A model generated the notes under the pieces. The model ran no database searches, had not been told where the DNA came from, and worked only from the letters and a program-made list of their open reading frames with translations. Shown here in pieces: positions 11,387 through 58,577 of a stretch of 64,000 bases of DNA (position 1 is its first letter; each line of letters begins with the position of its first letter). Origin of the DNA: Candidatus Zhuqueibacterota bacterium (GTDB taxonomy: Bacteria; Zhuqueibacterota; Zhuqueibacteria; Oceanimicrobiales; Oceanimicrobiaceae). The stretch covers positions 1 to 64,000 of the forward strand of contig JAJDAD010000039.1 of the NCBI GenBank assembly GCA_029262055.1, in the 5' to 3' direction. Made by a program: the position numbers and the translations under genes.

Positions 11387-11505
11387 CGTGTATTAAGTGT
11401 TTGTTATCTTGAAAAAGCTCTTGATTTTTTGTTGCCCCGGTGTTAAGTTCGTGTCTGTATTTTTGAGAAACCGGATTGATTGGTAGCTTTTGTTCTGAGT
11501 AAGGC

Positions 11506-12384: not shown

Positions 12385-12417
12385 TACTACTGTTTTAGCA
12401 TTTTGGCGGGGAACGCT

Positions 12418-20947: not shown

Positions 20948-23716
20948 ATGTCACAACGGGATGATCTCATCCAGATTTTCATTGCTGAGACCAATGAACT
21001 CATCGAGGAACTGGATCAGAGCTTTGTACGCATGGAAAGTGAGCCGGACGACCAGGAGCTGGTTGCCGCCATATTTCGCGCCACACATACTTTGAAAGGT
21101 AACTCGGGCCTGGTTGGGATGACTAACTTCGAGAGGATAGCCCACAAGACCGAAGAGGTCTTGACGGAAATCCGCGATGGCAAGAGGAAGATCGAGCCGG
21201 ACGTGGTCAACTTCCTGCTGGATTCTCTCGATCAGCTCAAAGTCCTGTTTGCCACTATTCAGGAGTCAGGCCACGACCAGGTTGACTTGCCAGAAATCCC
21301 TGTTCCCGGGGAGGTGGCCGTCAAAGACAGCGCCGGCAAGAAAGCGGCGGGAAAGACCAGTAAAAGAAAGGCCGCCCGGAGAACCAAGGCCAAAGGCGGT
21401 CCTGCCCGTAAGACTTCCGTTCGCAAGAAGAAGCAACCTGCCGCCGCCGGTGATGGGGCAAGTGTTGAAACAGCCTGGGAGGTATTCCCCGAAGATACCG
21501 CAGACGCGCCGGCAGAGGCCGTAGCTGAGGATGAGAGCTGGGGTTTGTTTGATGAAAGCCTCTCCGACGACAGCAGCAGCGAGGCGGTTCAGGAGATTGA
21601 AGCAGAAACTAAATGCGCTGAGCCTTCCGCCATACAATCTGCCACCACCTCCCCACCGGTCGAGCGGGCAGATACGACCATTCGAGTGGATGTTACCCTT
21701 CTCGACGGCCTAATGAATATGGTGGGCGAGTTGGTTTTGGCTCGCAACCAAATTCTGCAGTTCACCAAGGAAGTTGAGAACAGTCATTTTCAAGCGGCTA
21801 GCCAGCGTCTGGATTTGTGCACCAGTGAATTGCAGGAACGAATCATGCAGACGCGACTGCAGCCGATCAGCAATGTCTTTAATCGCTTCCCGCGTGTGGT
21901 CCACGATATTACCCGGGTCAACAACAAGGATGTCAAACTTACGCTTGAAGGTGCGGAAACAGAGCTTGACAAGACCATCATCGAGGGAATCAGAGACCCG
22001 TTGACCCACCTGGTTCGCAATGCCATCGATCACGGCATCGAGGATGAAGACACCCGGCAAGCGGCCGGGAAAAGCACCGTGGGAGCGCTGACTCTTCGCG
22101 CATTCCACGAAGGCGGGCAGGTAAATATAGAGGTCATTGACGACGGCTCCGGCATTGACCCCGGGAAGGTCAAAGCAAAAGCGGTCGAAAAGGGCGTCAT
22201 GACTCAACAGCAGGTGGGCGCACTTTCTGATCGAGAGGCCATCGCGCTGATTTTTAAGCCCGGTTTTTCTACCGCGGAGAAAGTGACTAAACTCTCAGGG
22301 CGAGGCGTCGGCATGGACGTCGTGAAGACCAACATAGAAAAAGTCGGCGGCAATATAGAAATCGCCAGTGAGTTGGGTCAGGGCACGACTATAAAGATTA
22401 AGATCCCCTTGACTTTGGCCATCATCCCGGCTCTGGTTATTAGCTCAGGCGGGCAGAAGTTTTTCATTCCGCAGGTGAATCTGCTGGAGCTGGTTCGTCT
22501 CGAGGGCGAGGCTGTCAAACAGATTGAGGAAGTCGGCGATGCGGAGATTTACCGTTTGCGTGGTAAGTTGTTGCCAATCTTGCGCTTGAGCAAAGTACTA
22601 AACTTGTCCTCGGAAGCGGCGGCGAAAGACGATGTCAATATCGTGGTGCTGGCTGCAGGGGAAACAAAGTTTGGCCTGATCGTCGACAAGATTCACGACA
22701 CGGAAGAGATAGTGGTAAAGCCCCTGAGTAAGTACCTAACGGAGGTGCAGGCGTTTGCCGGGGCGACGGTGATGGGCGATGGCAAGGCAGCTTTGATCCT
22801 GGATGTGGTTGGGTTAGCAGGTCTTGTGGAGATACCCTTGAATGAACCATCGGACATGACAGGAAAGACCGGGACCGATGAGAAACGGGCTGTCAATCAA
22901 ACCTATCTGCTCTTCTCGGTAAGTGACCGGGAGCAATTGGCTCTGCCGCTGGCCCTGGTCTCTCGACTGGAAAGAACCGACTACTCGGCGTTGCAAAAGG
23001 CCGGCAAGCAAGACGTTATCCAATATCACGGTAAAATTTTACCCCTATTGCGCGTCGAGCAGTTCATCGACATTGCGCCCCCGGCAGCGAAGGAAACAGC
23101 GGCAGTCATCGTCTTTTCCGTCGAAAAGAACGAAGTCGGCTTCTTGGTGTCACACATCATCGGCATTGAGGACTGCGATGCAAAACTTGACACGTCGTCA
23201 TCGCAACAACCGGGCATTCTCGGCTCCCTGATTGTCGATGGAAAGATTACACTTGTGGTCGATGCCTTCGCTTTGATCCAGTCGCAATTCCCGGAATGGT
23301 TTCGTCGCAGATCCGATTTTGTCAAAACCAAACAGAGCGAATCCGTCTCACGAATATTGGTGGTCGACGATTCTCCCTTTATCCGCGCCATCGAGCGCTC
23401 TTACCTCGAGTCGGCAGGCTTTACCGTGGTCGAAGCCAATGACGGCGAAGAGGCGCTTGCGCGAATGACCACCGAAAGTGTGGACATGATTATCACCGAC
23501 CTAGAGATGCCAAAAATGGACGGGTTGGAGCTCACCCGGACCATTCGTGCCAACGAGAGCCTAAAAGAGCTTCCAATAGTGGCGGTCACCAGCCCTGGCA
23601 GCAGTGCCGATGACCTTAAGCGCGGTCTGGAAGCAGGTGTGGACGCGTTTCTAAACAAGGTCGACCGGGAGGAACTTATCTCAACGCTGGAACAGGTCAT
23701 AGATTCGTCAAACTGA
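20948..23716 (+). CDS. cheA: Hybrid chemotaxis kinase: CheA with two CheW-like domains and C-terminal receiver
   Basis: This 922-residue histidine kinase has an N-terminal Hpt (P1) domain with the phospho-His in RATHTLKGNSG (His47). A low-complexity linker follows: residues 129-163 are strongly basic (Lys/Arg/Ala), then 177-230 strongly acidic. The dimerisation domain starts near 243 with VDVTLLDGLMNMVGELV. The HATPase has HLVRNAIDHGIE, DDGSGIDP and GRGVGMDVVK boxes. Two CheW-like domains come next (about 485-625 and 650-785). A receiver at about 800-920 has DDSPF and TDLEMPKMDG with its phospho-Asp. This CheA-REC architecture matches FrzE of Myxococcus more than enteric CheA. No separate P2 domain is evident. 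It is the first gene of the che cluster. Confidence 0.9.
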   Translation: MSQRDDLIQIFIAETNELIEELDQSFVRMESEPDDQELVAAIFRATHTLKGNSGLVGMTNFERIAHKTEEVLTEIRDGKRKIEPDVVNFLLDSLDQLKVLFATIQESGHDQVDLPEIPVPGEVAVKDSAGKKAAGKTSKRKAARRTKAKGGPARKTSVRKKKQPAAAGDGASVETAWEVFPEDTADAPAEAVAEDESWGLFDESLSDDSSSEAVQEIEAETKCAEPSAIQSATTSPPVERADTTIRVDVTLLDGLMNMVGELVLARNQILQFTKEVENSHFQAASQRLDLCTSELQERIMQTRLQPISNVFNRFPRVVHDITRVNNKDVKLTLEGAETELDKTIIEGIRDPLTHLVRNAIDHGIEDEDTRQAAGKSTVGALTLRAFHEGGQVNIEVIDDGSGIDPGKVKAKAVEKGVMTQQQVGALSDREAIALIFKPGFSTAEKVTKLSGRGVGMDVVKTNIEKVGGNIEIASELGQGTTIKIKIPLTLAIIPALVISSGGQKFFIPQVNLLELVRLEGEAVKQIEEVGDAEIYRLRGKLLPILRLSKVLNLSSEAAAKDDVNIVVLAAGETKFGLIVDKIHDTEEIVVKPLSKYLTEVQAFAGATVMGDGKAALILDVVGLAGLVEIPLNEPSDMTGKTGTDEKRAVNQTYLLFSVSDREQLALPLALVSRLERTDYSALQKAGKQDVIQYHGKILPLLRVEQFIDIAPPAAKETAAVIVFSVEKNEVGFLVSHIIGIEDCDAKLDTSSSQQPGILGSLIVDGKITLVVDAFALIQSQFPEWFRRRSDFVKTKQSESVSRILVVDDSPFIRAIERSYLESAGFTVVEANDGEEALARMTTESVDMIITDLEMPKMDGLELTRTIRANESLKELPIVAVTSPGSSADDLKRGLEAGVDAFLNKVDREELISTLEQVIDSSN

Positions 23717-23731
23717 CTAGGCGAGGCATCA

Positions 23732-24208
23732 ATGGCTAATACAATAGAAAGCTCTGAAGCGATTCACCTGGTGGATGCAGAAACCCAGTATGCGACCTTT
23801 AAGTTGGACCAGGATTATTTCGGTGTTGAGGTCTTGCGGGTTCAGGAGATCCTACGAAGGCAAGAGATGACGCATGTGCCTTTGGCACCTCCCTATGTGT
23901 CGGGCTTGATCAATCTGCGGGGCCAGATTGTGACAGCCATCGACCTGGGCGCGCTGCTGACGGGCCGTGCTGGGCCGGCAAGGCCAGACAGCATGAACGT
24001 GGTGGTCAACAACGGCGACGATGTAGTCAGTCTCCTCGTCGATGAGATTGGAGATGTCGTTGCTGTACAAAAGAGCCTGCTGGAGCCGGCTCCAGCTACC
24101 TTAACCGCTATTCCGCGGAGCTATCTTAAGGGGGTTTGTCAGCTTGCCAAGGCTGTGCTAATGGTTTTGGACCTCGGTGAAATTTTGGAAATAGAATCGA
24201 ACAAATGA
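23732..24208 (+). CDS. cheW: CheW-type scaffold protein
   Basis: This 158-residue SH3-like adaptor links receptors to CheA. Typical features are YATFKLDQDYFGVEVLRVQEIL, the PYVSGLINLRGQIVTAIDLG core and VDEIGDVV near residue 105. It starts 15 bases after cheA, so it is co-transcribed. It sits between the kinase and the receptor and has no receiver domain, so it is CheW rather than CheV. Confidence 0.93.
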   Translation: MANTIESSEAIHLVDAETQYATFKLDQDYFGVEVLRVQEILRRQEMTHVPLAPPYVSGLINLRGQIVTAIDLGALLTGRAGPARPDSMNVVVNNGDDVVSLLVDEIGDVVAVQKSLLEPAPATLTAIPRSYLKGVCQLAKAVLMVLDLGEILEIESNK

Positions 24209-24288
24209 ACATAGGGTGCTGCCAGGCATTTCATGCAGCAAGGGAATGAGAGCAAGGGGAGGGAAAACTCATAGATGGAGGCAAAGTT

Positions 24289-25905
24289 ATGGCAAGTAAG
24301 AAAAAGGCCAAATCGGTAATCCGCAAGCAAGCCGATGTAGATGAGCGGATTAGTGAAATCGAGCAAACCACTGGGTTGTCAAAGGCTGCGCTTGACGCGT
24401 TGCAAACCAATGTGTTCATCGCTGACCGGGATTTCAATCTCGTTTACATGAACAAGCGGGCTGCGGAGACGCTAAAAGTGGCCGCTCCGGAGATTAAGCG
24501 AATCTTTGATTTAGACATTGAGGAACTACTACATGGTTCAATCCACCGCTTCCATCGTGATCCTGCGGCAGTAGAGAAGATTCTGAACAACCCGGGCGCG
24601 TTGCCGCATAAGGCGACATTCCATTTTGGCAATGTCTATCTGGAAACCAACATCAACGCCATCTACAATGAGGCGGGCGTGTATGTCGGCAATGTTGTTA
24701 ATTGGGAAGAAGTCTCTGAGCACCGCAGGCAGGTAGAACAGGCCGCACGGCTGCTGTCTGCAATTGAGAGTTCCGGGACAGCGACGATGATGGTTGATCG
24801 CGATCTGGTTATTACCTATGTCAACGCAGCGACCGTCAGCATGTTTCACCAACATCTGGCTACCTTTGAAGCGCAATTCCCAGGGTTTGATTTAAGCAAA
24901 CTTGTTGGGACCTGCGTCGATGTCTTTCATGAGAGCCCCGGGCACCAGCGTCAAATACTGTCCGACAGGGGCAATCTGCCCTACACAACCAACATCAAAA
25001 TCGCCGACCTTACATTCAAGGTGAATGTCTCGGCTATGCTCGACGCTGGAGGTGACTACATCGGCAACTCGATGGAGTGGGCCAACATTACGGACCGGAT
25101 CGACATACGTGAAGCGACCAAAGCTGCTGCCGAAGACTTGAGCAAATCTTCAGGGGAATTGGTGGCTATTAGTAACCAAATGGCTGGCAGCGCGGAAGAG
25201 ACTTCCGTGCAATCAAACAATGTCTCCGGTGCCAGCGAAGAGGTGAGTCGCAACATTGGCAGTGTCGCAACGGCCATTGAGGAAATGAACACAACGATAA
25301 AAGAAGTCGCGGACCGCGCTGCAGAAGCCGCAGGCGTGGCTGACCAGGCTGTAGAACTTGCCAACGAAGCAAACAATGTCATTTCAAATCTCGGTAACAG
25401 TTCGCAAGAAATCAGCAAGGTCACAAAGGTGATTACTTCCATTGCTGAACAGACCAATCTCCTTGCTCTAAACGCTACCATCGAGGCGGCGCGGGCAGGA
25501 GAAGCCGGAAAGGGGTTTGCCGTGGTCGCCCATGAAGTCAAGGAACTAGCCAGGGAAACAGCAAAAGCCACCGAGGATATCTCGTTCAAGATTGAGCAGA
25601 TACAGTCTGATAGTAGCGGCTCAGTTGAGTCGATCAAATCCGTGTCTGACATCATCAACAAGATCAATCAGATTGCCAGCACTATTGCCTCAGCCGTAGA
25701 GGAACAGGCAGCTACCTCCAATGAGATTGCGCGCAATGTTTCCGAGGCGGCCAGCGGTGCGGACTCAATTGTAGAAAACATATCTCAAGTCGCGCAGGCA
25801 GCTGGTGAAACCGCGGCCGGCGCCGAAACAACTAAACAAAATGCGGAAGGTTTGACTGAGCTCGCTGGGCAGTTGCAAGAACTGGTTACGCAACTCGAGA
25901 TATGA
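24289..25905 (+). CDS. Soluble methyl-accepting chemotaxis protein with two PAS domains
   Basis: This 538-residue receptor has no transmembrane helix. Two related PAS-like domains (about residues 25-145 and 150-270) each carry an Ile/Val-x-x-FH-x-x-P-x-x-x-x-x-IL type motif ([14 protein letters not shown] and [14 protein letters not shown]), which suggests an internal duplication. A Met-accepting signalling domain follows, with the hairpin tip [19 protein letters not shown] near residue 387. The lack of a membrane span makes it a cytoplasmic sensor, as FrzCD is. PAS domains may bind haem, flavin or a metabolite; the ligand cannot be told. No clear C-terminal CheR-docking pentapeptide is visible (the end is TQLEI). 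Confidence 0.9.
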
Positions 25906-26066
25906 GAGTCGTAACGCATTTTTCGCACTGTGGTTTTACCCGCCGCGTGAAATCCCGGCCGAGCAGCAGAAACTACATGCGTCATGCGCACGCGCCCTAT
26001 GCACCATCAGGTGCCCATAATGCAGGTTGATTCAGTGATCCCGAGAGCGGGTACGGAGCAGGCTGC

Positions 26067-27116
26067 ATGACCGAGCCTTTAAAAATCATGGTCATCGATG
26101 ATTCCGCGCTCTACCGCGTGGCCATTACCAGGGTGCTGCAGCCTGACCGGAGCCTCGATGTTGTTGCGACTGCACCTAATGGAAAGATCGCGCTCATGAA
26201 GATGAGGCAAGCGGCTCCTGATGTAATCACTCTGGATATGGAAATGCCAGAGATGGACGGCCTAGCCACGCTCAAGGAGTTGGCAAGCCAATATCCGGAC
26301 ATCAAGACCATCGTGTTTAGCCAGCACTCCACGAGAGGCGCCAAGATCACTCTCGAAGCACTGGAACTCGGCGCCGTGGATTTCGTGACGAAGCCGGCGT
26401 CCTCCGCTTCGCTCGACTCGAACATCGCAGATATCCGTGAGGCGTTATTACCAAAGATGAGGGAGCTCGCCCGTCAGTGCGGTACGGCAGAGACGGATCG
26501 GTTGGTCCCTGTTACGTCGTGCAGTAAATCCCGGATCAGGGCGCTGCCGCGTGATGTCATCGCCATCGGTGTCAGCACTGGCGGGCCCAGCAGTCTTGCA
26601 ACACTGTTCCGGCAATTGCCCAAATCCATGAAGCAGGCCATTCTTATTGTGCAACACATGCCGGCCATATTTACGAAACAATTGGCTAAACAACTCGCAA
26701 GGATTGGGACAATACCGGTCTCGGAAGCGGTCGACGGAGAACCGATCCGGGCGGGACACGCATACGTTGCACCGGGCAATTTTCACCTCGAAGTTGCCCT
26801 AAACGGTGAGTGTAAAGTGCTCAGAACTCACCAGGGCCGACAGGAGAACTACTGCCGGCCTGCGGTAGATGTGCTGTTTCGTTCTATAGCCAAGGTGTAC
26901 AAGCAGCGCTGTATCGGCGTTGTGATGACGGGAATGGGCAAAGACGGCCTTGCCGGCTCGAAGGCCATGAAATCCGCCGGTGCCGCCATTGTTGCGCAAG
27001 ACAAGGCATCCAGCGTGGTGTGGGGAATGCCCCGACTTGTCATTGAGAACAATTTTGCCGATAGTGTCGCACCATTGGACCGGATGTACGAGTCTATCAA
27101 AGAGTTTCTTCTGTGA
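26067..27116 (+). CDS. cheB: Chemotaxis glutamate methylesterase CheB
   Basis: This 349-residue protein has an N-terminal receiver (DDSALYR; phospho-Asp57 in LDMEMPEMDG) and a C-terminal methylesterase/deamidase domain. The catalytic triad is visible: Ser170 in GVSTGGPSS, His197 in VQHMP and Asp in MTGMGKDG. It removes methyl groups from the receptor upstream. No cheR methyltransferase lies in this cluster, so the partner must be encoded elsewhere or be absent. A 161-base gap separates it from the receptor gene; the ATG at 26067 is supported by alignment of the N-terminus with the family. Confidence 0.93.
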   Translation: MTEPLKIMVIDDSALYRVAITRVLQPDRSLDVVATAPNGKIALMKMRQAAPDVITLDMEMPEMDGLATLKELASQYPDIKTIVFSQHSTRGAKITLEALELGAVDFVTKPASSASLDSNIADIREALLPKMRELARQCGTAETDRLVPVTSCSKSRIRALPRDVIAIGVSTGGPSSLATLFRQLPKSMKQAILIVQHMPAIFTKQLAKQLARIGTIPVSEAVDGEPIRAGHAYVAPGNFHLEVALNGECKVLRTHQGRQENYCRPAVDVLFRSIAKVYKQRCIGVVMTGMGKDGLAGSKAMKSAGAAIVAQDKASSVVWGMPRLVIENNFADSVAPLDRMYESIKEFLL

Positions 27117-27591: not shown

Positions 27592-30399
27592 ATGCGAAAA
27601 AGTAGAATCAACTACCTGTCTGCGTTAGTGGTCCTCGCCGTTCTGTTTTCGTTTTCACCCTTGAAGCCGCAAGAGACCGCATCCGACGAAACCAGTACGA
27701 CAGGTGTAATTGACTTCAAAGACCAGACCTCTCTCCAGCTAGATTTGGAAGGTCATCCGTTTTTTAGGGACATGGCCCGAAGAGAGTATGTGCTTCTGTC
27801 TCTGTATCGCAATCTTCGCACGGAGCTGGATAAGCGCGGCCCCGCAGCATTGCATCGTCCGGGCACACCATTTCAGGCCATCTATGATATCCCGGTCGAG
27901 CAGGCGCAAAGCGAAAGACAGCAAGGGCAGGCGTTGTCACGTATCGCCAGAGGTATTGCATCTGTACGGGCACTTGTTGAGCAGGGACCACAGGTAGTAG
28001 ACCTCTCCGATGCTCTGCGGCGCCTGGAGACGCGCATATACGTATTTCTGAAGCGACAACCCGAGCCCTCGTTCACCAACATGGACCTGGCGACTTCAGC
28101 GGTTCTGGCGAAATACGATGCAGAAGTGAAGGCTCTGATCGCATCGTATGAAAAGCTGCATTCGATAGAGCGGGACAATTCTGAATACGGGAACAACGAA
28201 ATAGCCTCCCGGCTCCGGGAGCAGCGCCAGGCGCTTGACGTTCTCCTGGATGAACCCGTTCTGAATAGTCCTGTCCCCGCGAATGCCCAAAAGCCGCTGC
28301 ACGACATCGTGGCCACAGTTGAAGATCTGGGAAAGACCGTTTCCGCCCCTGGCACCCAGCGTCAGCAAGCGGCTTTGCTTCAGAAACTGGAATCTCAGGT
28401 CGCATCCGTTATCGGTCCCGTCGCAACTTCGAAAAATGCCGACGTCTTCAGCCTCTTCGGTGAATGGCGTGCACAGACTTATGCCGAATATCAGGCCGCC
28501 TTTGTCCGTCAGCGGATCATTAAAAAGTATCTTTTGACTTCGGGCTCAGAGAAAGAAAGAGAGCGCATGTTGCAAGCGGATCTCAGCGACGCCGTCGGCT
28601 CCTTTAATGTCAGACAATTCGATCTGGCTGCGGACCTGTTCACACGGATTTTGCATGATTATTCACCGGTCTATCAGGATCTGACAAGCGTTCGCTTTCT
28701 TAGAGCGGAGTGTTTCTATCAACAAAACCTGCTGGATCGGGCCCGGAATGACTATGCGAAACTCCTGAGCGAACAGCCTTCGTCTGCACACGGCGGTGAT
28801 GCGCTTCTGCGGGTCCTGCAGATTGCCGTCAAGCAACAGGACTGGCATGCCTTCGACCAGGCATATAGCCGGATCAACCGCGCGGGACAATTTGTTTCTG
28901 CAGAGACTGAGGGCAAATGCCGCTATCTGGCCGGCGTGGCTTATTTGCAGAATTCACGCTATGTCGAGGCAGAGCGAGCGCTTGCGGCAGTGACGAAGTC
29001 ATCACCTTACTCACGGCAAGCTCGTTTCCTGCTCGGGTTAGCCAAGCTCGGGATGAATGACACTGCCTCGGGTACTGCGATATTGCAGGAGTTCGCCGGC
29101 CGCAAGCAGTTCTTTCGCTTTAGTTCGGAAATTGCCTACCTGCGGAGCCAGGCTCTCTTGAAACTCGGCTACCTGCACTACAATCGCGGCGAGCATGACA
29201 AGGCGCTGGCGCTTTTTTTAGGAATCCCGGCCGATTTTGAGCTGCATGACAAAGTAATGCTGGGATCAGCATGGGCCAACTTCAGGCTGGGACGCCACGA
29301 ACAGGCCCTTGCGTTGGCAGATTTTCTCACTGAGAGATATCCATATTCCGAAAACCTTTATGAGGCGCGTGTATTAGCCGGACATTGTAGAAGTCTGCTC
29401 GGCGAGGAGGACCCGGCGCTGGAGCGATTGCGCTATGTCACCAATGCCAGGGCGGTCTTGATGCAGTCGGCCCAGATCAGTGAGGAACGCAGACGGCTGC
29501 TAAAGACACTCAATGAATCTGAGAGCCTGGAGCAGCAGGCCGTTAGAGCGAATAATCGCGAGGTCTATGAGGCAGCCGCAATCAGAAGTCAAAAGCTATA
29601 TGGCCTGCTCGCAGATTTACGCTACCGTGGCAGCGCCCGTGGAACCCTGGTTGCAGACTTTGCCCGCGAACGCAACGCAATACTGGACCAGCTTGATGAA
29701 CTCGACGAAATCGCAGCAAGCGCCGAAGCGGCTGAGAATGAGAAATTGCTCAACGAAATAGATTCGCAGCGTCACCGCCTTGCCCGGGCACTGGAAGTCT
29801 ATCAGTCAGATCTGGCTCTCTCAGATAAGAGTTTCTTCGTTGACTACCCGCTCACGACCAGTGAGGCCGTAAGCAGTTATCGCGCCCAGACCCATAACAG
29901 AGTCCTGCGCGAGCTTGCCGACGAACAGGCGAAGCTAAGCGCCAATGTCAGACAGATTCAGAGCCTTCTCGCAAACAGCAGAGACAGTCGGAAAGCTGAA
30001 CTCGGCCTCGTTCAGAGAGATTTTGCTCAGCTTGGCGTGAACGCCGAGCTTCTGCGCAACCGGATGCTACAACACCCTGTGGTCAAGGAAAACACCGATT
30101 ATGCATTTTGGGCTTCCGTTTCCGGCCTGGCGGTTAGCGACATTGTATTCAACAGAATGAGGCAGCGGGATACGGCCGTCGCCGATCTTGCCAGAAATGT
30201 GCGCGCCGTGGATGCGATTATTGAAAAGCGTCGAGACGTCCTGGAACAACGGCTGCTCGAGTATGACGCAGTTATCGCGCAGATCGAACGCGAAATTGAA
30301 TCGGATGCTTCTGTCAGGGCTGAGAAGCAAAAAGAAGAGTATTTTAAAGATTCCTACTTCGATAAGTCGGAGAAAGAAGAAAAAGTGAGCAATGACTAG
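27592..30399 (+). CDS. Secreted TPR-repeat protein, 935 aa
   Basis: This protein has an N-terminal signal peptide (about residues 1-25, hydrophobic LSALVVLAVLFSF) and is probably periplasmic. TPR-like helical pairs run through roughly residues 340-620 (for example DLAADLFTRIL, LLDRARNDYAKLL, YVEAERALAAV, EHDKALALFLGI and RHEQALALADFL). The N-terminal third and the C-terminal 300 residues look like long charged helices or coiled coil. It resembles the large TPR proteins (PglI/AglT class) next to ExbB/ExbD/AgmX genes in myxobacteria; that is inference from architecture and context. It overlaps or abuts the next TPR gene, so the two are co-translated. Confidence 0.75.
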   Translation: MRKSRINYLSALVVLAVLFSFSPLKPQETASDETSTTGVIDFKDQTSLQLDLEGHPFFRDMARREYVLLSLYRNLRTELDKRGPAALHRPGTPFQAIYDIPVEQAQSERQQGQALSRIARGIASVRALVEQGPQVVDLSDALRRLETRIYVFLKRQPEPSFTNMDLATSAVLAKYDAEVKALIASYEKLHSIERDNSEYGNNEIASRLREQRQALDVLLDEPVLNSPVPANAQKPLHDIVATVEDLGKTVSAPGTQRQQAALLQKLESQVASVIGPVATSKNADVFSLFGEWRAQTYAEYQAAFVRQRIIKKYLLTSGSEKERERMLQADLSDAVGSFNVRQFDLAADLFTRILHDYSPVYQDLTSVRFLRAECFYQQNLLDRARNDYAKLLSEQPSSAHGGDALLRVLQIAVKQQDWHAFDQAYSRINRAGQFVSAETEGKCRYLAGVAYLQNSRYVEAERALAAVTKSSPYSRQARFLLGLAKLGMNDTASGTAILQEFAGRKQFFRFSSEIAYLRSQALLKLGYLHYNRGEHDKALALFLGIPADFELHDKVMLGSAWANFRLGRHEQALALADFLTERYPYSENLYEARVLAGHCRSLLGEEDPALERLRYVTNARAVLMQSAQISEERRRLLKTLNESESLEQQAVRANNREVYEAAAIRSQKLYGLLADLRYRGSARGTLVADFARERNAILDQLDELDEIAASAEAAENEKLLNEIDSQRHRLARALEVYQSDLALSDKSFFVDYPLTTSEAVSSYRAQTHNRVLRELADEQAKLSANVRQIQSLLANSRDSRKAELGLVQRDFAQLGVNAELLRNRMLQHPVVKENTDYAFWASVSGLAVSDIVFNRMRQRDTAVADLARNVRAVDAIIEKRRDVLEQRLLEYDAVIAQIEREIESDASVRAEKQKEEYFKDSYFDKSEKEEKVSND

Positions 30400-30424
30400 T
30401 CATCTTGCATTCAGGAAGCGATCC

Positions 30425-33400
30425 ATGAAGCCGTTTGTCATGAAAACTTTGGTTATTTGTTGCTGGGTGTTCGCCGTGATTTCTCCGGGCCCCGCGCAAG
30501 CGCAGCAGCAAAACCCCACTCCATCGACGGATGCCGTTAACGATTCACTGTTACTGGATTTTTCTGTCGAGGAGCTTCTCAAAATTCGAACCTCCTATCA
30601 GGCTGAGACTGAACGTCTTCTCAGTGAGAAAGACCTGTTGCGCGGCGAGGCCATCGAAGAGATTCGTTACATGCTGGGATTTGACTGGGAGATTCCCGGG
30701 CTGGACAGAGTCCTTTTGCAGTTGGCCGAGCTGGAATATGAGGAGGCTGTGCGCATCTATGGCAAAGCTATGGATGAATACAGCGAGGCCCTCACCCGCT
30801 TTGAAGCTGGTGAACTGAGTGAAGAGCCTGCAGAACCGGCGGTGGATTACGAACGCGCGCTTAAACTCTACCAGCGAATTCTGAATGAATTTTCCCAGGG
30901 GGAGTTTGCGGCAGCGGCACATTACAACAAAGCCTTCCTGCTGGAAGACAGTGGCCAGGGGAAATCAGCCTTTCGTAGCTTTCTCGCGTTTCTGCAGAAT
31001 CACCCACGGAGTCGCTTCGTTCCGGACGCACTGATGCGGGTTGCCGAGTATTACTTTGCACCGCCACGCTGGGAAATTGAAAAGGCGATCACCTACTACG
31101 AACGTGTCCTGGACCACAGAGACACGCCGCAGTACGATGCAGCGCTTTATCGTTTGGGTTGGTGTTACTACAAGCTCAGTGATTATCCCGCCGCTATTTC
31201 GTACTTCACCGTTCTTGCCGACGACGTACAGCGCATGAAGAAACTTGATCCGGAAGTGAAGTACCATCTGCCGGTCGTGCGTGATGAGGCGGTTGAATAT
31301 ATCGGTATCGGCTTCCTCGATTTCGGTGGAGCTGAGGATGCGGCCAGATATTTTGATGAAATCGGTGGCCGGGGTTACGGCATGATGGTCTTTAAAAAAA
31401 TTGCCGACGCGTTGATGGATTCCAAGGAAGAATATCTTGATGCCATTCAGGCGTATGAGTTTCTTCTCGCCATGTATCCGGAGACTCCGCAGGGACCGTA
31501 CATCCAAACGCGTATAGCCAGCGCCTATGAGAAATTAGAAGACAAGAGGATGGCGCGGCTTACGTTGGCGGATCTTTCGCGCAGATTCGGAACGGACAGT
31601 GGCTGGTGGCAGAGGCTGGCACCGAATGAGCGCAAGCTCGCCGGGCGCAGCATCGAAAAAAGTACGCGCGAGAGTATTAACGCCTTGTTGAAGGAGGCTG
31701 AAGAGCAGCAGGACATGCAACTCTACGACCAGGCCATTTCCGATAGCCGCAGCTACCTTAAATCGTTTCCGACGGATAGTCATGCGGTGCAGGTGCACTG
31801 GAACATGGCTCTGGCGCTCGACTCAAAGGTGAATCGGCCCGAAGAGGCTTTTACCGAGTATCTGAGTATCAGCGGTTCGTACAGTGGTTCAGAGTATCAG
31901 AAGCAGGCTGCGGCCAATGCTATTGCCCTGGCAGATATGTGGGTTCGTCGGGACAGCCTGGGCTTGGCAACGTCAGCCGCGGGCACAGAGGGTGAGGTCA
32001 TCGGCCTGACTGAGTCGGAAGAGCGCCTGATCCTGGCAGCTAACAACTTCTTGAAGAACTTTCCTGACGAAGAGGAATCCGCAAAAATTCTGGTTCGTGC
32101 GGGTGACCTCTACTATAAGAAGAAAGACTTCAAAAGCGCCATCCAGTACTTCAAGACGCTTGCCAAGCACTTCCCGGAATCGCAGGAGATGGATTATGCC
32201 CGCTATCTGATCATGGAAAGCTATTTTGGCAAAGGGGACTATGAAAGCACGGAGCTGGTTGCCGGCCGGATCAAGAACATAGACTCCGAGTACGCTGCCA
32301 AGGCAGGTGCGCGCGTTGCCGAATCGGTCTTCCTGCAGGCGGAAACCCTGTCAGGCTCCGAAAGTCATGAGCAGGCCGCCCATGAGTATTTACGGTTACT
32401 CGACGTTGCACCCGACGCTGAGTTCGCAGACCTTGCGCTGTACAATGCCGGTGTTGAGTTTGAAAAAAGCAGTGATTTTAACAATGCGATTGCAGCATAC
32501 GAGAAGCTGATCAGCGACTTTCCGCAATCGCAGCATTTTATCAACTCGATGAATAATCTGGCTTTTGATTACCGGGAGATTGAAGACTACGCCAACGCGG
32601 GGCGCACGTATGAAAAGTTAGTTACGCATGCGACCGGGGACAGCATGGCGCAAACCGCACTCTTCAATGCCAGTGTTTCTTACGTGCAGGCAGAGAAGTG
32701 GTCGCGAGCTATTTCTATCAACAACGCCTACGCTGAGCGTTTCCCCCGCGCGCCGGATGCCGCTGACTTGTTGTTTGACAACGCCCGGTATCATTTGAAG
32801 CTCGATGAGGTTGACAGCGCAAACGCAATCTACGCACAATTCTCAGCAAAATACCCTGATTCGCCCAAGGTTATAGAAGCGCATTATCGCCGTGGTCAGT
32901 ATTACCAGGAGGGCGACAACGCTGCGGCAGCGCGGGCAGAGTTTCACACAGTTCTGCAGAAATACGAAACCTTCCAGTCAAGAAAGCTCGAAACGGATGA
33001 CTTCATCGTTGCCGAGGCGCAATTCGAGTTGACCCGGTTTAAGTTTGATGAATTCGCCGCAATTGAGTTGACTTTGCCGGAGAGCAACCTGGAAGCAGCC
33101 AAATCACGAAAGAAAGAGCTGCTGGTGCAACTGACAGAAGACTACACGAAGGTTGCCGGTTTTGGCACTCACCGCCTTTATGAAGCTACTTTCAAGATGG
33201 GGCAGGTTTACGAGATTTTTGCTCGCGCGTGGGCCGAGCAGGAATTGGCCGCTACGGATGAAACGCAAAGAATCGTTGCCAAGAAGGATATAAATCGTGG
33301 CGCCGCTGATCTGTACCAACAGGCGGTCCAGGCGTACAAAGATGGCGCAACCGCATTACAGGAGTTTTCTATAAAGCGTTCGCAAGAAACTCCGGCCCAT

Positions 33401-34849
33401 GTAGAAGGTGAACTCGACAAGCTATCACTCGAGGACTCTACACTTGCTGCCGGCAAGGCCTGGATTGTGAAATGCCAGGGGAAAGTCTCTGAAAGCCTTT
33501 ACCTGATGGCCGAACTGAATACCGAATCCTTGCAGCTCTTGCGCGAATCTCCGTTGCCGGAAGGTCTGTCGAGTCTGGAGCAGTTGATTTACCGCAAGGA
33601 GATATTGCATAAGGCTGTTGCGCCATTGGCTCAGGAAATCGTTGCAGCGCATACTCACAACATCCAGGAAAGCGCGCAGCTAGGACTGGAAAATGAGTGG
33701 GTCGATTTTTCTCGAAAGAATGTGTTAAAAATCGGCAACATTGTGCCGATTGAGACAGAAAGGCTAGGAACAAAGGCCCTGAAATCCTATTCCGACATGC
33801 TTGTATCGTATGAACAACTTATTGCAACTGATGATGAACAAGCCGTCGATGTTGCTGAGCAAATGACGGCCTTGTTGGAGTTCAGTTCAACCTCAGCCCA
33901 GGCCAGCGCCCGTATTTTTGAGCAGATTTGGCCGGCCCTGCAGACTCAGGCGGCCAACGCGATGGCCTCTGTGGAACACGAAGAATTGCTGTTTTCCGAG
34001 TTGTATGCCTACTCCGTGCTTGCTGATTCGCTTGCCGAGCAGGCCTATCAAAAGCGGAAACATTACGAAGCGAGGTTTGCCGAGGCCGAGCAGATCAATT
34101 TTGAGGATGCATTTTTCACTTTTGACGATTTGCATTTTACCTTGAACGATGGCTCCGAGAAAGTGCTGACAGCAACGTACCAAATAAGTTCTGACCCGGC
34201 CGTCCCAAACAGTTGGCGCCGCCGGATCGGGCTGGCACTTGCCAAACGCAATCCGGCAGAGTACGCGGAGGAAATGGGGTTAGCCATGGAAGAACTGGTT
34301 ATCCCTTCCGGGTCAGACTGGGTGGTTTCTTCTGACTCGACTGGCGGATGGTACCAGACAGACTTTGCGGATGAGCAGTGGAGCAACGCGTACAACGAAG
34401 GCCTCGCGGCCAATATGAACGGCAGTGCACAACAGATTTGGCTTCTGGATATTGATTCCGGCATGCTGGCGGCGGTTGATTCCAGCGCGCAATTTACGCC
34501 GGCAGCAGCGATGGATGGCGCGCAGCAGACGGCCCTGTTGGGAGCTGTGGAGAGACCCCAAACAGTCTATTTCCGCAAGTCCTTTGAGCTTGACGGGCCA
34601 GCGGCTTCCGGGCAATTGCAGATCGCAACCGACGATTCTTACACAGTCTACGTGAATGGCGAGCAAGTTGTGCAAGCCGTGTCTACAGGTGCGGCGCAGA
34701 GCCATGACTTGACCGGGCAACTCAAGCTAGGTCGGAACACCCTGGCAATAAAAGTTGTGGACGCGGACCAGTCACATGGCAGTTTGGAAGCAATCGTCAG
34801 TGTGAGGACTATTACTGACTGGTCGCAGCAGGCTGCAGGCACAGATTGA
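30425..34849 (+). CDS. Very large secreted TPR protein with C-terminal jelly-roll domain
   Basis: This protein of about 1474 residues has a signal peptide (MKPFVMKTLVICCWVFAVIS, then ...PAQAQ). Many TPR or TPR-like repeats lie between about 140 and 850, such as ALKLYQRILNEFSQGEFAAAAHYNKA read as helical pairs. A helical middle leads to a last segment of about 150 residues that looks like a galactose-binding or jelly-roll fold (VYFRKSFEL...GQLQIATDDSYTVYVNGE, then LGRNTLAIKVVD). That fold often binds carbohydrate. The start at 30425 has an AGGAAG site; an in-frame ATG at 30392 overlaps the previous gene by 8 bases. It precedes the Exb genes in one operon, suggesting a periplasmic scaffold for an energised envelope complex. 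Confidence 0.75.
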   Translation: MKPFVMKTLVICCWVFAVISPGPAQAQQQNPTPSTDAVNDSLLLDFSVEELLKIRTSYQAETERLLSEKDLLRGEAIEEIRYMLGFDWEIPGLDRVLLQLAELEYEEAVRIYGKAMDEYSEALTRFEAGELSEEPAEPAVDYERALKLYQRILNEFSQGEFAAAAHYNKAFLLEDSGQGKSAFRSFLAFLQNHPRSRFVPDALMRVAEYYFAPPRWEIEKAITYYERVLDHRDTPQYDAALYRLGWCYYKLSDYPAAISYFTVLADDVQRMKKLDPEVKYHLPVVRDEAVEYIGIGFLDFGGAEDAARYFDEIGGRGYGMMVFKKIADALMDSKEEYLDAIQAYEFLLAMYPETPQGPYIQTRIASAYEKLEDKRMARLTLADLSRRFGTDSGWWQRLAPNERKLAGRSIEKSTRESINALLKEAEEQQDMQLYDQAISDSRSYLKSFPTDSHAVQVHWNMALALDSKVNRPEEAFTEYLSISGSYSGSEYQKQAAANAIALADMWVRRDSLGLATSAAGTEGEVIGLTESEERLILAANNFLKNFPDEEESAKILVRAGDLYYKKKDFKSAIQYFKTLAKHFPESQEMDYARYLIMESYFGKGDYESTELVAGRIKNIDSEYAAKAGARVAESVFLQAETLSGSESHEQAAHEYLRLLDVAPDAEFADLALYNAGVEFEKSSDFNNAIAAYEKLISDFPQSQHFINSMNNLAFDYREIEDYANAGRTYEKLVTHATGDSMAQTALFNASVSYVQAEKWSRAISINNAYAERFPRAPDAADLLFDNARYHLKLDEVDSANAIYAQFSAKYPDSPKVIEAHYRRGQYYQEGDNAAAARAEFHTVLQKYETFQSRKLETDDFIVAEAQFELTRFKFDEFAAIELTLPESNLEAAKSRKKELLVQLTEDYTKVAGFGTHRLYEATFKMGQVYEIFARAWAEQELAATDETQRIVAKKDINRGAADLYQQAVQAYKDGATALQEFSIKRSQETPAHVEGELDKLSLEDSTLAAGKAWIVKCQGKVSESLYLMAELNTESLQLLRESPLPEGLSSLEQLIYRKEILHKAVAPLAQEIVAAHTHNIQESAQLGLENEWVDFSRKNVLKIGNIVPIETERLGTKALKSYSDMLVSYEQLIATDDEQAVDVAEQMTALLEFSSTSAQASARIFEQIWPALQTQAANAMASVEHEELLFSELYAYSVLADSLAEQAYQKRKHYEARFAEAEQINFEDAFFTFDDLHFTLNDGSEKVLTATYQISSDPAVPNSWRRRIGLALAKRNPAEYAEEMGLAMEELVIPSGSDWVVSSDSTGGWYQTDFADEQWSNAYNEGLAANMNGSAQQIWLLDIDSGMLAAVDSSAQFTPAAAMDGAQQTALLGAVERPQTVYFRKSFELDGPAASGQLQIATDDSYTVYVNGEQVVQAVSTGAAQSHDLTGQLKLGRNTLAIKVVDADQSHGSLEAIVSVRTITDWSQQAAGTD

Positions 34850-34907
34850 ACCTCGGCAGTTTGTATGACAATGATTGGGAACAAGAGAAATACTCAGGAG
34901 TAGGCAG

Positions 34908-35276
34908 ATGCTTCGTCCAATAATGTTGATTCTTTGCTTTGCCGCAGCAGTTGTTCTGTTTTGGGGGGAATCCCTGAAGGCCCAGGACAGCTCGGCTGTG
35001 AATACTGACAATCGCGCCGAAGAACAGGTGACAGCACGCGACGAAATCGTGTTTGACGAAATCCAGATAGAGGGCGTGATCGATAAACCGAATGTCTCCA
35101 TTCTGCCGACGCGCACCAAGCCGGAGTTTGACAAGCTTGAGTTTGTTGGAAGATCTTTTGATTCGGAGATAAAGGCTTTGCCCCCTCATGATTTTCTGTT
35201 CGACATTGAATTCGATGCAGGTCAGCAGCAAGTCAGAGTGGGCGATATTTTATCACAGATAACCAAGAAAAAATAA
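34908..35276 (+). CDS. Small secreted protein of unknown function in the TPR/Exb operon
   Basis: This 122-residue protein has a clear signal peptide (RPIMLILCFAAAVVLFW, cleavage near SLKAQ) and an acidic, probably beta-rich mature part (EIVFDEIQIEGVIDKP). The C-terminus ends ILSQITKKK. The ATG at 34908 is preceded by CAGGAGTAGGCAG. I recognise no family. Its place between the TPR proteins and ExbB makes it a candidate periplasmic or outer-membrane part of the same machine. It is worth a remote-homology search. Confidence 0.7.
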   Translation: MLRPIMLILCFAAAVVLFWGESLKAQDSSAVNTDNRAEEQVTARDEIVFDEIQIEGVIDKPNVSILPTRTKPEFDKLEFVGRSFDSEIKALPPHDFLFDIEFDAGQQQVRVGDILSQITKKK

Positions 35277-35317
35277 CCTCGAGCGCAAACCACCAACATT
35301 TACTTAGGAGTAGTATT

Positions 35318-35965
35318 ATGGATATCTTTGAGTCTTTTCGTCCCGGTGCATCTGGCTGGCAATTCATGTGGGCGCTTCTCTTTGTTGGAGCTTTCATGAT
35401 TGCCATCGCCTTTGAGCGCGGTTATTACATTTGGGTGAAGGCGAACTTGAATACCAGAAGCTTTATGACCGAAATAAAGAAATTGGTGCGGGCTGGTAAG
35501 TTTAGCCAGGCTGTCGAACTGTGCGACTCTCTGGGTGACAAGGCGCTTCCCAAGGTTGTGAAAGCCGGACTTTCCCTGGTGGCAAGAAACCAGAATGTAG
35601 ACTTTCGCGCCATCCAAAACTCTGTAGACGAAGGCACACTTGAAGTGATCCCAAAACTGCAGGAGCGAACCGGCTTTTTGGCGCTGATCGGCAATGTTGC
35701 AACGCTGATCGGCCTGATGGGAACCATTTACGGCCTGATACTCGCATTTAACGCTGTCGGTGAGGCCGGATATGACGCTGCGCAGAAATCCGCTTTTTTG
35801 GCAGCAGGTATTTCGGCTGCAATGAATACGACCCTGATGGGTTTGGCAGTTGCGGTGCCGGCCATTACCATCTATACGTTCATTCATACGAAGACGGTTC
35901 GGCTTATCGATGAGATTGATGAGCATACAGTAAAACTGATTAACATTTTAACGGGGAACCAATAG
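35318..35965 (+). CDS. MotA/TolQ/ExbB proton-channel family protein
   Basis: This 215-residue inner-membrane protein has three transmembrane helices (about residues 14-33, 105-130 and 160-185). The conserved GLMGTIYGLILAF and 'AISAAMNTTLMGLAVAVPAI' type channel segments are present, together with the cytoplasmic region after helix 1. Such pentamers couple proton flow to conformational change in ExbD/TolR and TonB-like proteins. A GGAGTAG site precedes the ATG. It is followed 3 bases later by an ExbD gene. Whether it serves TonB-dependent import, Tol-Pal or a motility motor cannot be told from this gene alone. Confidence 0.9.
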   Translation: MDIFESFRPGASGWQFMWALLFVGAFMIAIAFERGYYIWVKANLNTRSFMTEIKKLVRAGKFSQAVELCDSLGDKALPKVVKAGLSLVARNQNVDFRAIQNSVDEGTLEVIPKLQERTGFLALIGNVATLIGLMGTIYGLILAFNAVGEAGYDAAQKSAFLAAGISAAMNTTLMGLAVAVPAITIYTFIHTKTVRLIDEIDEHTVKLINILTGNQ

Positions 35966-35968
35966 GCC

Positions 35969-36490
35969 ATGGCGTACAGACCCTCACGACGTCAGACCCG
36001 GAAGGCCAACGAGGCGTTGGAGCCGAATATGACGCCGATCATGAATTTGATGGTGGTTCTTATTCCCTTACTTTTGTCTTCGGTCGAGCTCATCAAGATG
36101 AGCGTCATCGAACTGAATCTGCCACCCAATGTGCCAAATCAGTTGACCAGCACTGAAGAGCCCGAGTTACTTGACCTCGCTCTTACAATTACTGACGAGG
36201 GGTTCTATATTTCCAGTGCTGCCGCGATTTTGGCTTCTGACGATGGCAAGCCTTCGATACCGAAGAAAGATGGTGAATACGACTATGAGTTGCTGGCTGA
36301 GAAACTCTATGAGATCAAGGGTAAGGCCGGGAACCGGTTTGAGGACTCAACCTCAATAACCATCCAGGCGGAGCCCAAAATCAACTACCAGACGTTGGTT
36401 AGTACCATGGACGCTGCTCGTTCGATACGTCTGGATGGGCAGGACGTTATGCTGTTTCCGCACGCTTCGGTCAGCGCGGGCATACTTTAG
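35969..36490 (+). CDS. ExbD/TolR-like protein 1
   Basis: This 173-residue protein has a short basic cytoplasmic N-terminus (MAYRPSRRQTRK) and one transmembrane helix (about residues 27-46) that starts after EPNMTPIMNLMV. The Asp that is essential in ExbD (typically in the 'TPxxDVxx' segment) is not seen at the usual place: the sequence reads MTPIMNLMVVLIP, with Asn where Asp is expected. The periplasmic domain ends with an INYQTLVSTMDAAR segment typical of the family. A second ExbD gene follows. Two different ExbD-like subunits with one ExbB is the layout of the AglRQS-type motors. Confidence 0.82.
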   Translation: MAYRPSRRQTRKANEALEPNMTPIMNLMVVLIPLLLSSVELIKMSVIELNLPPNVPNQLTSTEEPELLDLALTITDEGFYISSAAAILASDDGKPSIPKKDGEYDYELLAEKLYEIKGKAGNRFEDSTSITIQAEPKINYQTLVSTMDAARSIRLDGQDVMLFPHASVSAGIL

Positions 36491-36539
36491 TCGGGAAAGT
36501 CGCACAACCTATCGCTAAATAAAGTGAACGAGTATTTCT

Positions 36540-37034
36540 ATGGCTTACGTACCTTCTAGACGAAAGAAACATGACACATTTGTAAGCGGGGTGAAGTTAA
36601 ACCTGACTTCGATGATGGACATGTTTACCATCATCCTGGTTTTTCTTTTGAAGACATACACCTCCGAAGGTCAGATGATACAGCCTTCCGAGTCTCTGAC
36701 CTTGCCAAAATCGTCGGCTACCGCTCCGCACGAAGTGGCCCTTGAACTGGTGGTTTCCAAGGAGATGGTCATGCTCAACGATAAGGCTATCGTCTCAATG
36801 GCTGAAGTGAAGCAACAAAGCGGGTTTGTAATTGAGCCACTCAGGGAAGAGTTGGCACGTCATGCCGATGAGGCCAAGGCCATGGAGAAAGAACTCGACA
36901 TTGCTTTTTCGGGAAAAGTCGTGATTCAAGGAGACAAGACAATAGAATATCGCGACCTGGTAAAGGTGATGGCAACTTGCGGTATGGCAGAGTACCCCAA
37001 TATGCGCTTGGTTGTTTACAAAAACATAAACTGA
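36540..37034 (+). CDS. ExbD/TolR-like protein 2
   Basis: This 164-residue protein has a basic N-terminus (MAYVPSRRKKHD) and one membrane helix that carries the Asp in LTSMMDMFTIILVFLL, the position expected for the proton-binding Asp of ExbD/TolR. The periplasmic part has GDKTIEYRDLVKVMATCG, typical of the family. It differs from the upstream copy in that the Asp is present, so the pair may form a hetero-dimer of one competent and one altered subunit. It lies 49 bases after the first copy. Confidence 0.88.
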   Translation: MAYVPSRRKKHDTFVSGVKLNLTSMMDMFTIILVFLLKTYTSEGQMIQPSESLTLPKSSATAPHEVALELVVSKEMVMLNDKAIVSMAEVKQQSGFVIEPLREELARHADEAKAMEKELDIAFSGKVVIQGDKTIEYRDLVKVMATCGMAEYPNMRLVVYKNIN

Positions 37035-37087
37035 GAAGATAGTTTCCGCAACCCAGGGATCTTCATCCTGAGAATGAAAGGTGAGTA

Positions 37088-38188
37088 ATGAGTAATCGGG
37101 AAAAAAGAGAGCATCAAGATTCCAATAGTTCTTCGACCATGGACTGGCCGAAGAAAGAATCGCGAGGGAGACATCGCGCCCCCAACGACTTCAGCAGATC
37201 TTTTTCTGATCTGTTTGACCGGGACTTCATGGGCTTCCTGGCTGGTTCGTTTGTCTTGCATGCTGCTTTGGTGGTATATTTTCTGTTCAATCCGGTCTCG
37301 TCTGAAACCATGTCAAAACAAATTGCTGACATGCAGCGCCGGATAGCACAAACGATCAAGGAACGGGAGAAGGCGCGTGAAGAGCAGTTTGTGCAGTTTA
37401 AATTTGAAGAGAAGGTTCCCGAAGTTGAGGAGGTCGCAGAGGTGCCGGAAATCAAGCCGGCGGATGCTACGAAGAAAGTAGCCAAGGCGGAAGCCGTGCC
37501 GGAAAAGAAACCACGGGCCCGCCGACCCCGGAAGAAGATATCACAGGATCAGATTGCTAAGAATGTCAGCAACAAGGGTGTCCTTGCGCTCCTGGCAAGC
37601 AATAGCAGTACGGCATCGGGCCGGGAGGTCTCCATGATCCTGAGCAATGCGAGTTCATCCATGGGCGACCTCGATGCCACCCTTTCCAAGATATCCGGGC
37701 TCAAGAGCAGTGGCAAGTCTGATATGGCAAAAGGGGCAGGGGACATCAAGGGCAGCCGCGACGGTGGCGGTGCCGGCATCGACGCTCTCGTCGGTGATTT
37801 AGGCTCGGCAAACGAACAGTCTTTTGAGCGTAGCGGCGATCTTGTTATCGCGTCAGGGTCACCGGAAGTTGAAGAGGGCGGAGTCGGAGTTGCCGGCCGG
37901 CAGCCGGAGGATCTGCAGGAGGTGGTGGTTACACATAATAAATCGATACAATACTGCTATGAGCGTCAGCTAAAAAGAAACCCAAACCTGAAGGGCAAGA
38001 TCAGTGTTCGATTCACGATTGCACCCGACGGGACAGTTAGCAATGTTGAGCTGATATCTTCGACTTTGAACAACCAGGCCGTCGAAAGATGTGTCGTCAG
38101 CCGCATTCGCCGGTGGAATGATTTCGGGGTCATCGATACTTCTCACGGCAATACCACTATCCGCCAGACCTACGCATTCGGCTACTAG
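37088..38188 (+). CDS. TonB/AgmX-like energy transducer
   Basis: This 366-residue protein has a charged cytoplasmic N-terminus, one membrane helix at about residues 48-70 (FMGFLAGSFVLHAALVVYFL), and a long charged region rich in Glu/Lys/Pro (about 75-150: EEVAEVPEIKP, KKPRARRPRKK). A Ser/Gly-rich linker leads to a C-terminal domain of the AgmX/PglI type (IQYCYERQLKRNPNLKGKI, then FTIAPDGTVSNVE, ...RRW). Two Cys lie in that domain. This domain occurs in TonB-like proteins and in myxobacterial gliding proteins. The gene closes the operon; a hairpin terminator lies about 115 bases later. Confidence 0.85.
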   Translation: MSNREKREHQDSNSSSTMDWPKKESRGRHRAPNDFSRSFSDLFDRDFMGFLAGSFVLHAALVVYFLFNPVSSETMSKQIADMQRRIAQTIKEREKAREEQFVQFKFEEKVPEVEEVAEVPEIKPADATKKVAKAEAVPEKKPRARRPRKKISQDQIAKNVSNKGVLALLASNSSTASGREVSMILSNASSSMGDLDATLSKISGLKSSGKSDMAKGAGDIKGSRDGGGAGIDALVGDLGSANEQSFERSGDLVIASGSPEVEEGGVGVAGRQPEDLQEVVVTHNKSIQYCYERQLKRNPNLKGKISVRFTIAPDGTVSNVELISSTLNNQAVERCVVSRIRRWNDFGVIDTSHGNTTIRQTYAFGY

Positions 38189-58390: not shown

Positions 58391-58577
58391 CTAACGTCTG
58401 GCCCGGTTTTGGGAGTTCCATTCAAGAAGAGGTCAAAATAGGTTGCTTCTCTGAGATATGTTGTTTAATTTGGTTGGCAAGAGTCCATTTACCCAAAAAA
58501 GCTCGCCATTTACCCACCACTTAATTTCAAATCTAAAATCTTTATTTCTCAACACTACAAGAAAACCGGAGGTCCTT

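Follow-up and report, generated by a model that had tools for sequence, protein, structure and literature searches.

Two probable modules in a KSB1-lineage contig: an Agl/Glt-core-type envelope gene cluster with an Asn/Asp pair of ExbD-type subunits, and an Aer2-like chemosensory cluster

The Agl/Glt core complex associates AglR, AglQ and AglS with GltC, GltD, GltE and GltG (Luciano et al. 2011, PMC3169522). In the parts of that paper used here, it is reported from Myxococcus, some Proteobacteria and Fibrobacter, its genes are clustered outside the Deltaproteobacteria, where their function is given as unknown, and it is also found in non-gliders and argued to be insufficient for motility; these parts do not name KSB1 or Calditrichota as hosts. 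As the function of the core complex outside Myxococcus was left unexplained there, the forms found in these two groups are relevant. The DNA analysed here, hereafter the window, is a stretch of 64,000 nucleotides (positions 1 to 64,000, forward strand, of contig JAJDAD010000039.1, assembly GCA_029262055.1) from a draft genome of 5.74 Mb in 114 contigs attributed to Candidatus Zhuqueibacterota; this source genome and its relatives are called KSB1 lineage below. The window contains a seven-gene envelope cluster, TPRa-TPRb-F-R-Q-S-G (cluster 1, 27592-38188), preceded by a cluster of chemosensory (che) genes. Both are probably independent modules: an Agl/Glt-core-type, proton-driven envelope machine on one side, an Aer2-like chemosensory module on the other.

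Like the core complex, cluster 1 gathers in one place one ExbB-type protein (R), two ExbD-type proteins (Q and S), secreted TPR proteins and a GltG-like transducer (G). It differs from it by two longer TPR proteins instead of three, a jelly roll carried by TPRb, a G devoid of the N-terminal cytoplasmic (FHA) domain, and an Asn replacing the Asp in one ExbD-type protein. A previous reading of the window, made from the letters without any database search (the sequence-only reading), had proposed that the TPR/ExbB/ExbD/ExbD/AgmX unit is Agl/Glt-like, and this part holds good: the set of genes agrees with the complex that Luciano et al. describe, and so do the profile scores of G—113.5 bits for NCBIfam GltG (NF033760, whose cut-off of 650 is not reached) and 91.2 bits for the AgmX/PglI tail domain (NF033768, above its cut-off of 40), versus 34.7 bits of 265 for TonB and 26.9 of 27.1 for tonB_Cterm, both below cut-off. 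GltJ gives 49.7 bits of 450. The profile comparison therefore does not place G with TonB. The membrane helix of G displays a SxxxH motif (the Ser conserved in 28/30 sequences, the His in 27/30), which we take to be the docking motif of TonB and TolA. A conserved His is named as the motor contact in the consulted part of a 2025 study (PMC12204202). Besides, the R proteins of 32 cluster-1 loci form a single clade (98/100) apart from TolQ and ExbB of Escherichia coli, whose outgroup branches are long; this tree sample also included an R protein of Vibrio alginolyticus, and the R2 protein of a second cluster on contig C54, entered twice (also as own_L004).

The genes of cluster 1 do form a compact unit, with an overlap of 8 bp between TPRa and TPRb and gaps of 3-53 bp between the subsequent genes up to G. 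By contrast CheB and TPRa are 475 bp apart, so that the che and envelope genes look like two transcription units. Whole-genome counts with TPRb, which cover the KSB1 lineage and the Calditrichota, revealed a long match in 43 of 60 genomes of the former (own included) and a match at E <= 1e-50 in 36 of 40 of the latter. Gene order was examined at 32 of the 42 relatives' TPRb loci. The order TPRa-TPRb-R-Q-S-G is kept at 29 of them, which makes cluster 1 more than a chance grouping; among the three exceptions L039 and L042 stop at a contig end and L060 has no G match. In two Calditrichota genomes assembled as single contigs (4,978,541 and 4,063,086 bp) the order is atp-TPRa-TPRb-R-Q-S-G-aspS, F having no match in either. 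The aspartyl-tRNA synthetase gene (aspS) also follows G at 14 of the 32 relatives' loci, most of which end shortly past G, and at 15 of 31 named loci, many of these being the same contigs. The ATP synthase is a common but not universal neighbour: its beta gene lies ahead of TPRa at 10 of the 24 loci having at least 4.5 kb upstream, and not at the other 14. From these comparisons cluster 1 appears ancient and widespread in two phyla.

The source genome has a second Agl/Glt-like cluster on contig C54 (locus L074, 1639-10313), with the genes in the order outer-membrane-like protein, TPR protein of 450 aa, TPR protein of 962 aa, small protein F2, R2, Q2, S2 and G2; the first label is a reading of the sequence, this protein having no family match, and should be taken as putative. 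We selected 20 second-cluster regions of relatives from the weaker TPRb matches, and in 18 the order TPR-TPR-F2-R2-Q2-S2-G2 is kept, the exceptions being a short contig (L122) and a TPR protein alone (L126). Part by part, this cluster is a paralogue of cluster 1. In hhalign comparisons TPRa matches the 450-aa protein (3.2e-39) better than the 962-aa one (7.1e-16), TPRb matches the 962-aa protein (1.8e-118) while having an extra C-terminal part, and profile comparison links F and F2 (7.1e-9); the Asn/Asp pattern described below is common to both clusters. The second cluster differs from cluster 1 by its gene for an outer-membrane-like protein, its shorter TPR proteins and its G2, whose membrane span is preceded by about 155 residues. 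This large N-terminal part is reminiscent of GltG and gives a weak match (E 0.0086) to a domain that we presume to be related to FHA. Most G2 proteins are without the Ser-x3-His motif. Cluster 1 would thus seem to be an enlarged version of the simpler machine encoded by the second cluster. With the TPRb query, no match of the second-cluster kind was obtained in the Calditrichota genomes G060 and G061. Candidate division KSB1 therefore has two paralogous forms and Calditrichota at least one; as the latter phylum includes cultured members, a knock-out becomes possible there. No paper on a Glt-type machine of KSB1 or Calditrichota came up in the open-licence literature that we searched; in the consulted part of a paper on Caldithrix abyssi (PMC5317091), flagellar and type IV pilus genes are present and the Bacteroidetes-type gliding genes absent.

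Q and S are told apart by the residue aligned to Asp25 of E. coli ExbD. This residue is Asn in 32/32 Q and Asp in 31/31 S of the KSB1 lineage, Asn in 19/19 Q2 and Asp in 19/19 S2; several of these sequences are near copies, and the Vibrio proteins were kept out of the counts. The named loci, an overlapping set, give Asn in 28/28 Q and Asp in 27/27 S, and the same pair is found in both single-contig Calditrichota genomes. Among the 12 ExbD-like proteins of the source genome, Q and Q2 are the only ones missing the Asp. This departs from Myxococcus, where a conserved aspartate is predicted for AglQ as well as AglS according to the part of a 2022 review used here, which also states that it is unknown whether they form hetero- or homodimers (PMC9389320). 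The Asn of Q is moreover the very change that stops AglQ in Myxococcus: as reported in the consulted part of PMC3858216, the AglQ D28N mutant loses proton conductance, motility and sporulation. Here this Asn persists across two phyla and in a pair of paralogous machines.

With Asn fixed in Q and Asp in S, the pair shows the pattern expected of an obligate heterodimer of Q and S that has a single proton site, which we propose by inference; selection would hardly account for a pair of homodimeric motors of which one is dead. Whether these proteins represent a lasting natural class of Mot/Tol/Exb motors, defined by an obligate heterodimer as axle and a single proton-carrying Asp, is in our eyes nearly an even call. 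If they do, protons would pass at one axle position only, providing the motor with a built-in asymmetry or making it a half-stepping rotor. The Asn/Asp pair offers a natural experiment on how the dimer is composed: the proton site has been lost in one axle subunit and kept in its partner. We recognised no report of an Asn-bearing ExbD pair in the open-licence papers searched.

An ExbB search of plasmids led to a cluster of V. alginolyticus plasmid pMBL96 (L142, 4286-11472) and to a Ton cluster of Pseudoalteromonas, which was set aside; neither TPRb nor G had any match among plasmids. The pMBL96 cluster presents, in order, an outer-membrane protein, hypothetical secreted proteins, R-Q-S and a proline-rich transducer, and its Q is also deprived of the Asp (Ser instead) while its S keeps it. 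On the other hand, its R is only 34% identical to that of cluster 1 and its transducer matches neither NCBIfam GltG nor AgmX. This core-complex-like motor cluster is carried by a mobilisable plasmid, near genes of Ig-like-domain proteins.

The machine that cluster 1 probably encodes can be sketched as follows. R, with the Q/S pair as axle, would form an inner-membrane motor; the axle would be lopsided in its use of protons, the conducting Asp being on S and the Asn on Q. G would dock on the motor through its TonB/TolA-like SxxxH helix and carry force across the periplasm, in which TPRa, TPRb and F would act as scaffold or cargo adaptor. As for F, the family shares the motif IEKPN..I.P.R....F..RSF..E, and its true start is probably the ATG at 34908 rather than the TTG at 34875, the former placing a signal-like segment at the N-terminus. 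The end of TPRb (residues 1195-1485) is predicted by AlphaFold2, from an alignment of 30 sequences, with a mean pLDDT of 89.8, i.e. a confident fold. Its beta-sandwich matches GH2 glycosidases in Foldseek (best E 5.0e-07), with a query-normalised TM of 0.37 since just part of the model aligns, and a sub-threshold Pfam match to the GH2 sugar-binding domain falls at the same place. Contact of this jelly-roll end with a glycan is plausible on the model, and the partner could be wall glycan or a surface polymer. The most likely function of the whole would be a proton-driven force exerted on the outer envelope or on a surface polymer; gliding could be, but need not be, its use.

A narrower form of this proposal is that cluster 1 positions a surface polymer, moving a polysaccharide around the cell as the Agl-Nfs machine does, and plays no part in motility. 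We regard it as a substantial possibility, if somewhat the lesser one. It is favoured by the sugar-binding-like jelly roll, located in the part of TPRb that is missing from the TPR protein of the second cluster, and by the precedent of Agl-Nfs, a documented non-motility use of such a machine in which, according to the part of PMC3858216 cited here, the same principle of a motor plus a transducer applies, AglR binding NfsG. However, jelly-roll folds bind many ligands and no exopolysaccharide genes stand beside cluster 1. The likeness to Agl-Nfs has limits too: there the nfs genes are eight, with the motor encoded apart from them (same source), and the machine serves the spore coat, whereas we have no evidence of sporulation here.

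An ordinary Ton/Tol system, devoted to uptake by TonB-dependent receptors or to outer-membrane maintenance, seems unlikely. R does resemble TolQ and ExbB (63 and 47 bits), the C-terminal end of G bears a distant likeness to TonB, Tol-Pal is accompanied by TPR proteins of the YbgF/CpoB type, and in sequence searches of solved structures the relevant relatives of G and R are TonB and TolQ/ExbB only. Yet G scores higher with GltG and the AgmX tail than with TonB, and two ExbD genes—one without Asp—together with two giant TPR genes are not a Ton/Tol layout. Neither TonB-dependent receptor nor TolB nor Pal was found among the scanned neighbours, and the same genome has other ExbD-type sets with the normal Asp.

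Several observations nevertheless weigh against the attribution of cluster 1 to the Agl/Glt type and against two independent modules. G stays far below the equivalog cut-off of GltG; the attribution comes from profiles and the gene set, our tree of R being one with TolQ and ExbB of E. coli; and none of the seven genes of cluster 1 codes for an outer-membrane protein. TPRa matches GltC with 34.3 bits for a cut-off of 450 and over the TPR region only, perhaps through a similarity common to TPR proteins in general. Of 15 members of the family of the short F protein, one matches CglF/GltF (18.2 bits, E 0.0019), at first sight a group-A gliding gene, and of its counterpart F2 none of 18 does; the identity is not claimed here. 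Finally, the genome being a draft, the single insertion of che genes proposed below rests on one contig.

The sequence-only reading had given weight to the adjacency of the che and envelope clusters, which the relatives do not support. A CheA-REC orthologue (at least 49% identity in the main match, not counting the shorter N-terminal fragments of G001, G002 and G050 or a second one of G042) exists in the source genome and in six relatives. In five of these, G005, G021, G033, G042 and G048, TPRb is present on another contig, the sixth (G024) having no long TPRb match. Among the genes searched for, an ATP synthase gene directly precedes TPRa in G021, G033, G042 and G048, so that no che cluster lies in between; the G005 contig extends just 1.6 kb beyond TPRa on the upstream side. 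No Che orthologue occurs at any of the 32 examined TPRb loci of relatives, nor at the 31 named loci except for a match of the CheA query with 24% identity in L095. There are no Che genes at cluster 1 in the two single-contig Calditrichota genomes either, where all the CheA matches listed are hundreds of kilobases away from it. The che genes look like no more than a chance neighbour of cluster 1 in the source genome. The simplest account would be an ancestral order atp-cluster-aspS, in which CheA-CheW-receptor-CheB moved between the ATP synthase genes and cluster 1 in the lineage of the window and nowhere else. That the adjacency is not even real, the Che-TPR junction being an assembly error, is improbable: the genome is indeed a draft of 114 contigs and the junction is unique among the loci seen, but it lies inside a 112-kb contig and the che and cluster-1 genes are alike in GC and GC3 (GC at third codon positions).

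The che cluster had also been read as Frz-like. This stands for the general composition—CheA-receiver fusion, CheW, cytoplasmic receptor and CheB are shared with the Frz pathway of Myxococcus—and fails for the receptor domains, the number of CheW and the CheR content. In the parts of the sources cited here, FrzCD is built of a DNA-binding tail, a pair of HAMP domains and a signalling domain and has no evident sensor (PMC12077210), the pathway comprises two CheW proteins (PMC6952110) and FrzF is a CheR with a TPR region (PMC2535941). By contrast the window has a PAS-PAS receptor, two CheW domains on CheA, a single CheW gene and a cluster lacking CheR, for which the genome yielded just two genes, both on contig C93; in the che clusters of relatives that were scanned onward (L069, L072), CheB is followed by CheR. 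The receptor was correctly announced as devoid of a membrane span, and two PAS domains can now be added. Its best curated match in NCBIfam is Aer2 of Vibrio (311 bits, below the cut-off of 1200) and its PAS domains match the solved Aer2 PAS structures 3vol and 4hi4; it differs from the Aer2-type soluble oxygen receptors in that HAMP domains were not found. In this receptor and several orthologues, stretches containing His and Trp stand at what we presume to be the positions characteristic of heme PAS domains. The PAS-PAS receptor might bind heme. The PAS domains of Aer2 are oxygen sensors whose heme is bound by a His, according to the part of PMC13401364 used here. The orthologous receptor of G005 (L069, 9039-11549) combines an N-terminal globin with PAS domains, a mixed globin/PAS chemoreceptor. 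The che cluster is probably an Aer2-like oxygen-sensing module.

FlhA and PilT are encoded elsewhere in the genome, and as flagellum and pili genes are present, ordinary outputs exist for a chemosensory pathway; the Che module would more likely serve these than cluster 1. A machine for gliding or surface motility under the control of a neighbouring Frz-like pathway, suggested by the CheA-REC fusion, the soluble receptor and the Agl/Glt type of the motor and transducer, is very improbable, given the absence of Che at the relatives' loci (0/32) and the separate contigs in the relatives having both (5/5), the PAS-PAS receptor instead of a DNA-binding tail and di-HAMP, the single CheW and missing CheR, the other outputs available, and the judgement, in the consulted part of PMC3169522, that the core complex alone does not suffice for motility in Myxococcus.

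The linker that follows the Hpt domain of CheA (residues about 125-170) is histone-H1-like, with 17 Lys/Arg in 45 residues. A nucleoid-bound Che array as a shared feature was considered and dropped: the linkers of seven orthologues contain 13 and 14 Lys/Arg in two cases and 9-11 in the five others.

The open reading frames listed by the sequence-only reading were all recovered on the + strand with unchanged coordinates, and their domains agree with Pfam and NCBIfam (Table 1).

Table 1. Features of the che and envelope clusters in the window, with the evidence for each.
Feature	Coordinates	Strand	Evidence or remark
CheA-REC kinase, 922 aa; Hpt, dimerisation, HATPase, two CheW, receiver	20948..23716	+	Pfam
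CheW	23732..24208	+	Pfam
Soluble receptor, 538 aa; PAS-PAS-MCP signalling domain, Aer2-like	24289..25905	+	Pfam, NCBIfam
CheB (receiver + methylesterase)	26067..27116	+	Pfam, NCBIfam
TPRa, secreted, 935 aa, with TPR repeats; its second-cluster paralogue is the TPR protein of 450 aa	27592..30399	+	Pfam, hhalign
TPRb, secreted giant of 1485 aa, with TPR repeats; its second-cluster paralogue is the TPR protein of 962 aa	30392..34849	+	Pfam, hhalign
TPRb C-terminal region, residues 1195-1485; helices, then beta-sandwich	33974..34846	+	AlphaFold2, Foldseek
F, small secreted protein	34875..35276	+	likely true start ATG 34908
R, ExbB/TolQ/AglR-type motor ring subunit	35318..35965	+	Pfam MotA/ExbB, NCBIfam, tree
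Q, ExbD/TolR-type subunit; Asn26 (codon 36044-36046) replacing the proton-carrying Asp	35969..36490	+	Pfam ExbD
S, ExbD/TolR-type subunit; Asp27 kept (codon 36618-36620)	36540..37034	+	Pfam ExbD
G, TonB/GltG-like transducer; SxxxH transmembrane motif, AgmX/PglI C-terminal domain	37088..38188	+	NCBIfam

A Pfam scan of the window places the ATP synthase set upstream of the che genes and aspS downstream of G; LysM and PhoH genes also belong to the neighbours of cluster 1. Between ATP synthase and CheA, a 179-aa open reading frame (20134-20673) has no Pfam match and found none by tblastn in the relatives' loci; it may belong to the inserted stretch. Just ahead of the ATP synthase genes, those for ParA, ParB, an M23 peptidase and a bactofilin stand in a row (9748-12864). 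Further downstream, a histidine-specific methyltransferase gene (PF10017, EgtD-like; 58458-59591) lies near the gene of a glycine-betaine ABC transporter protein.

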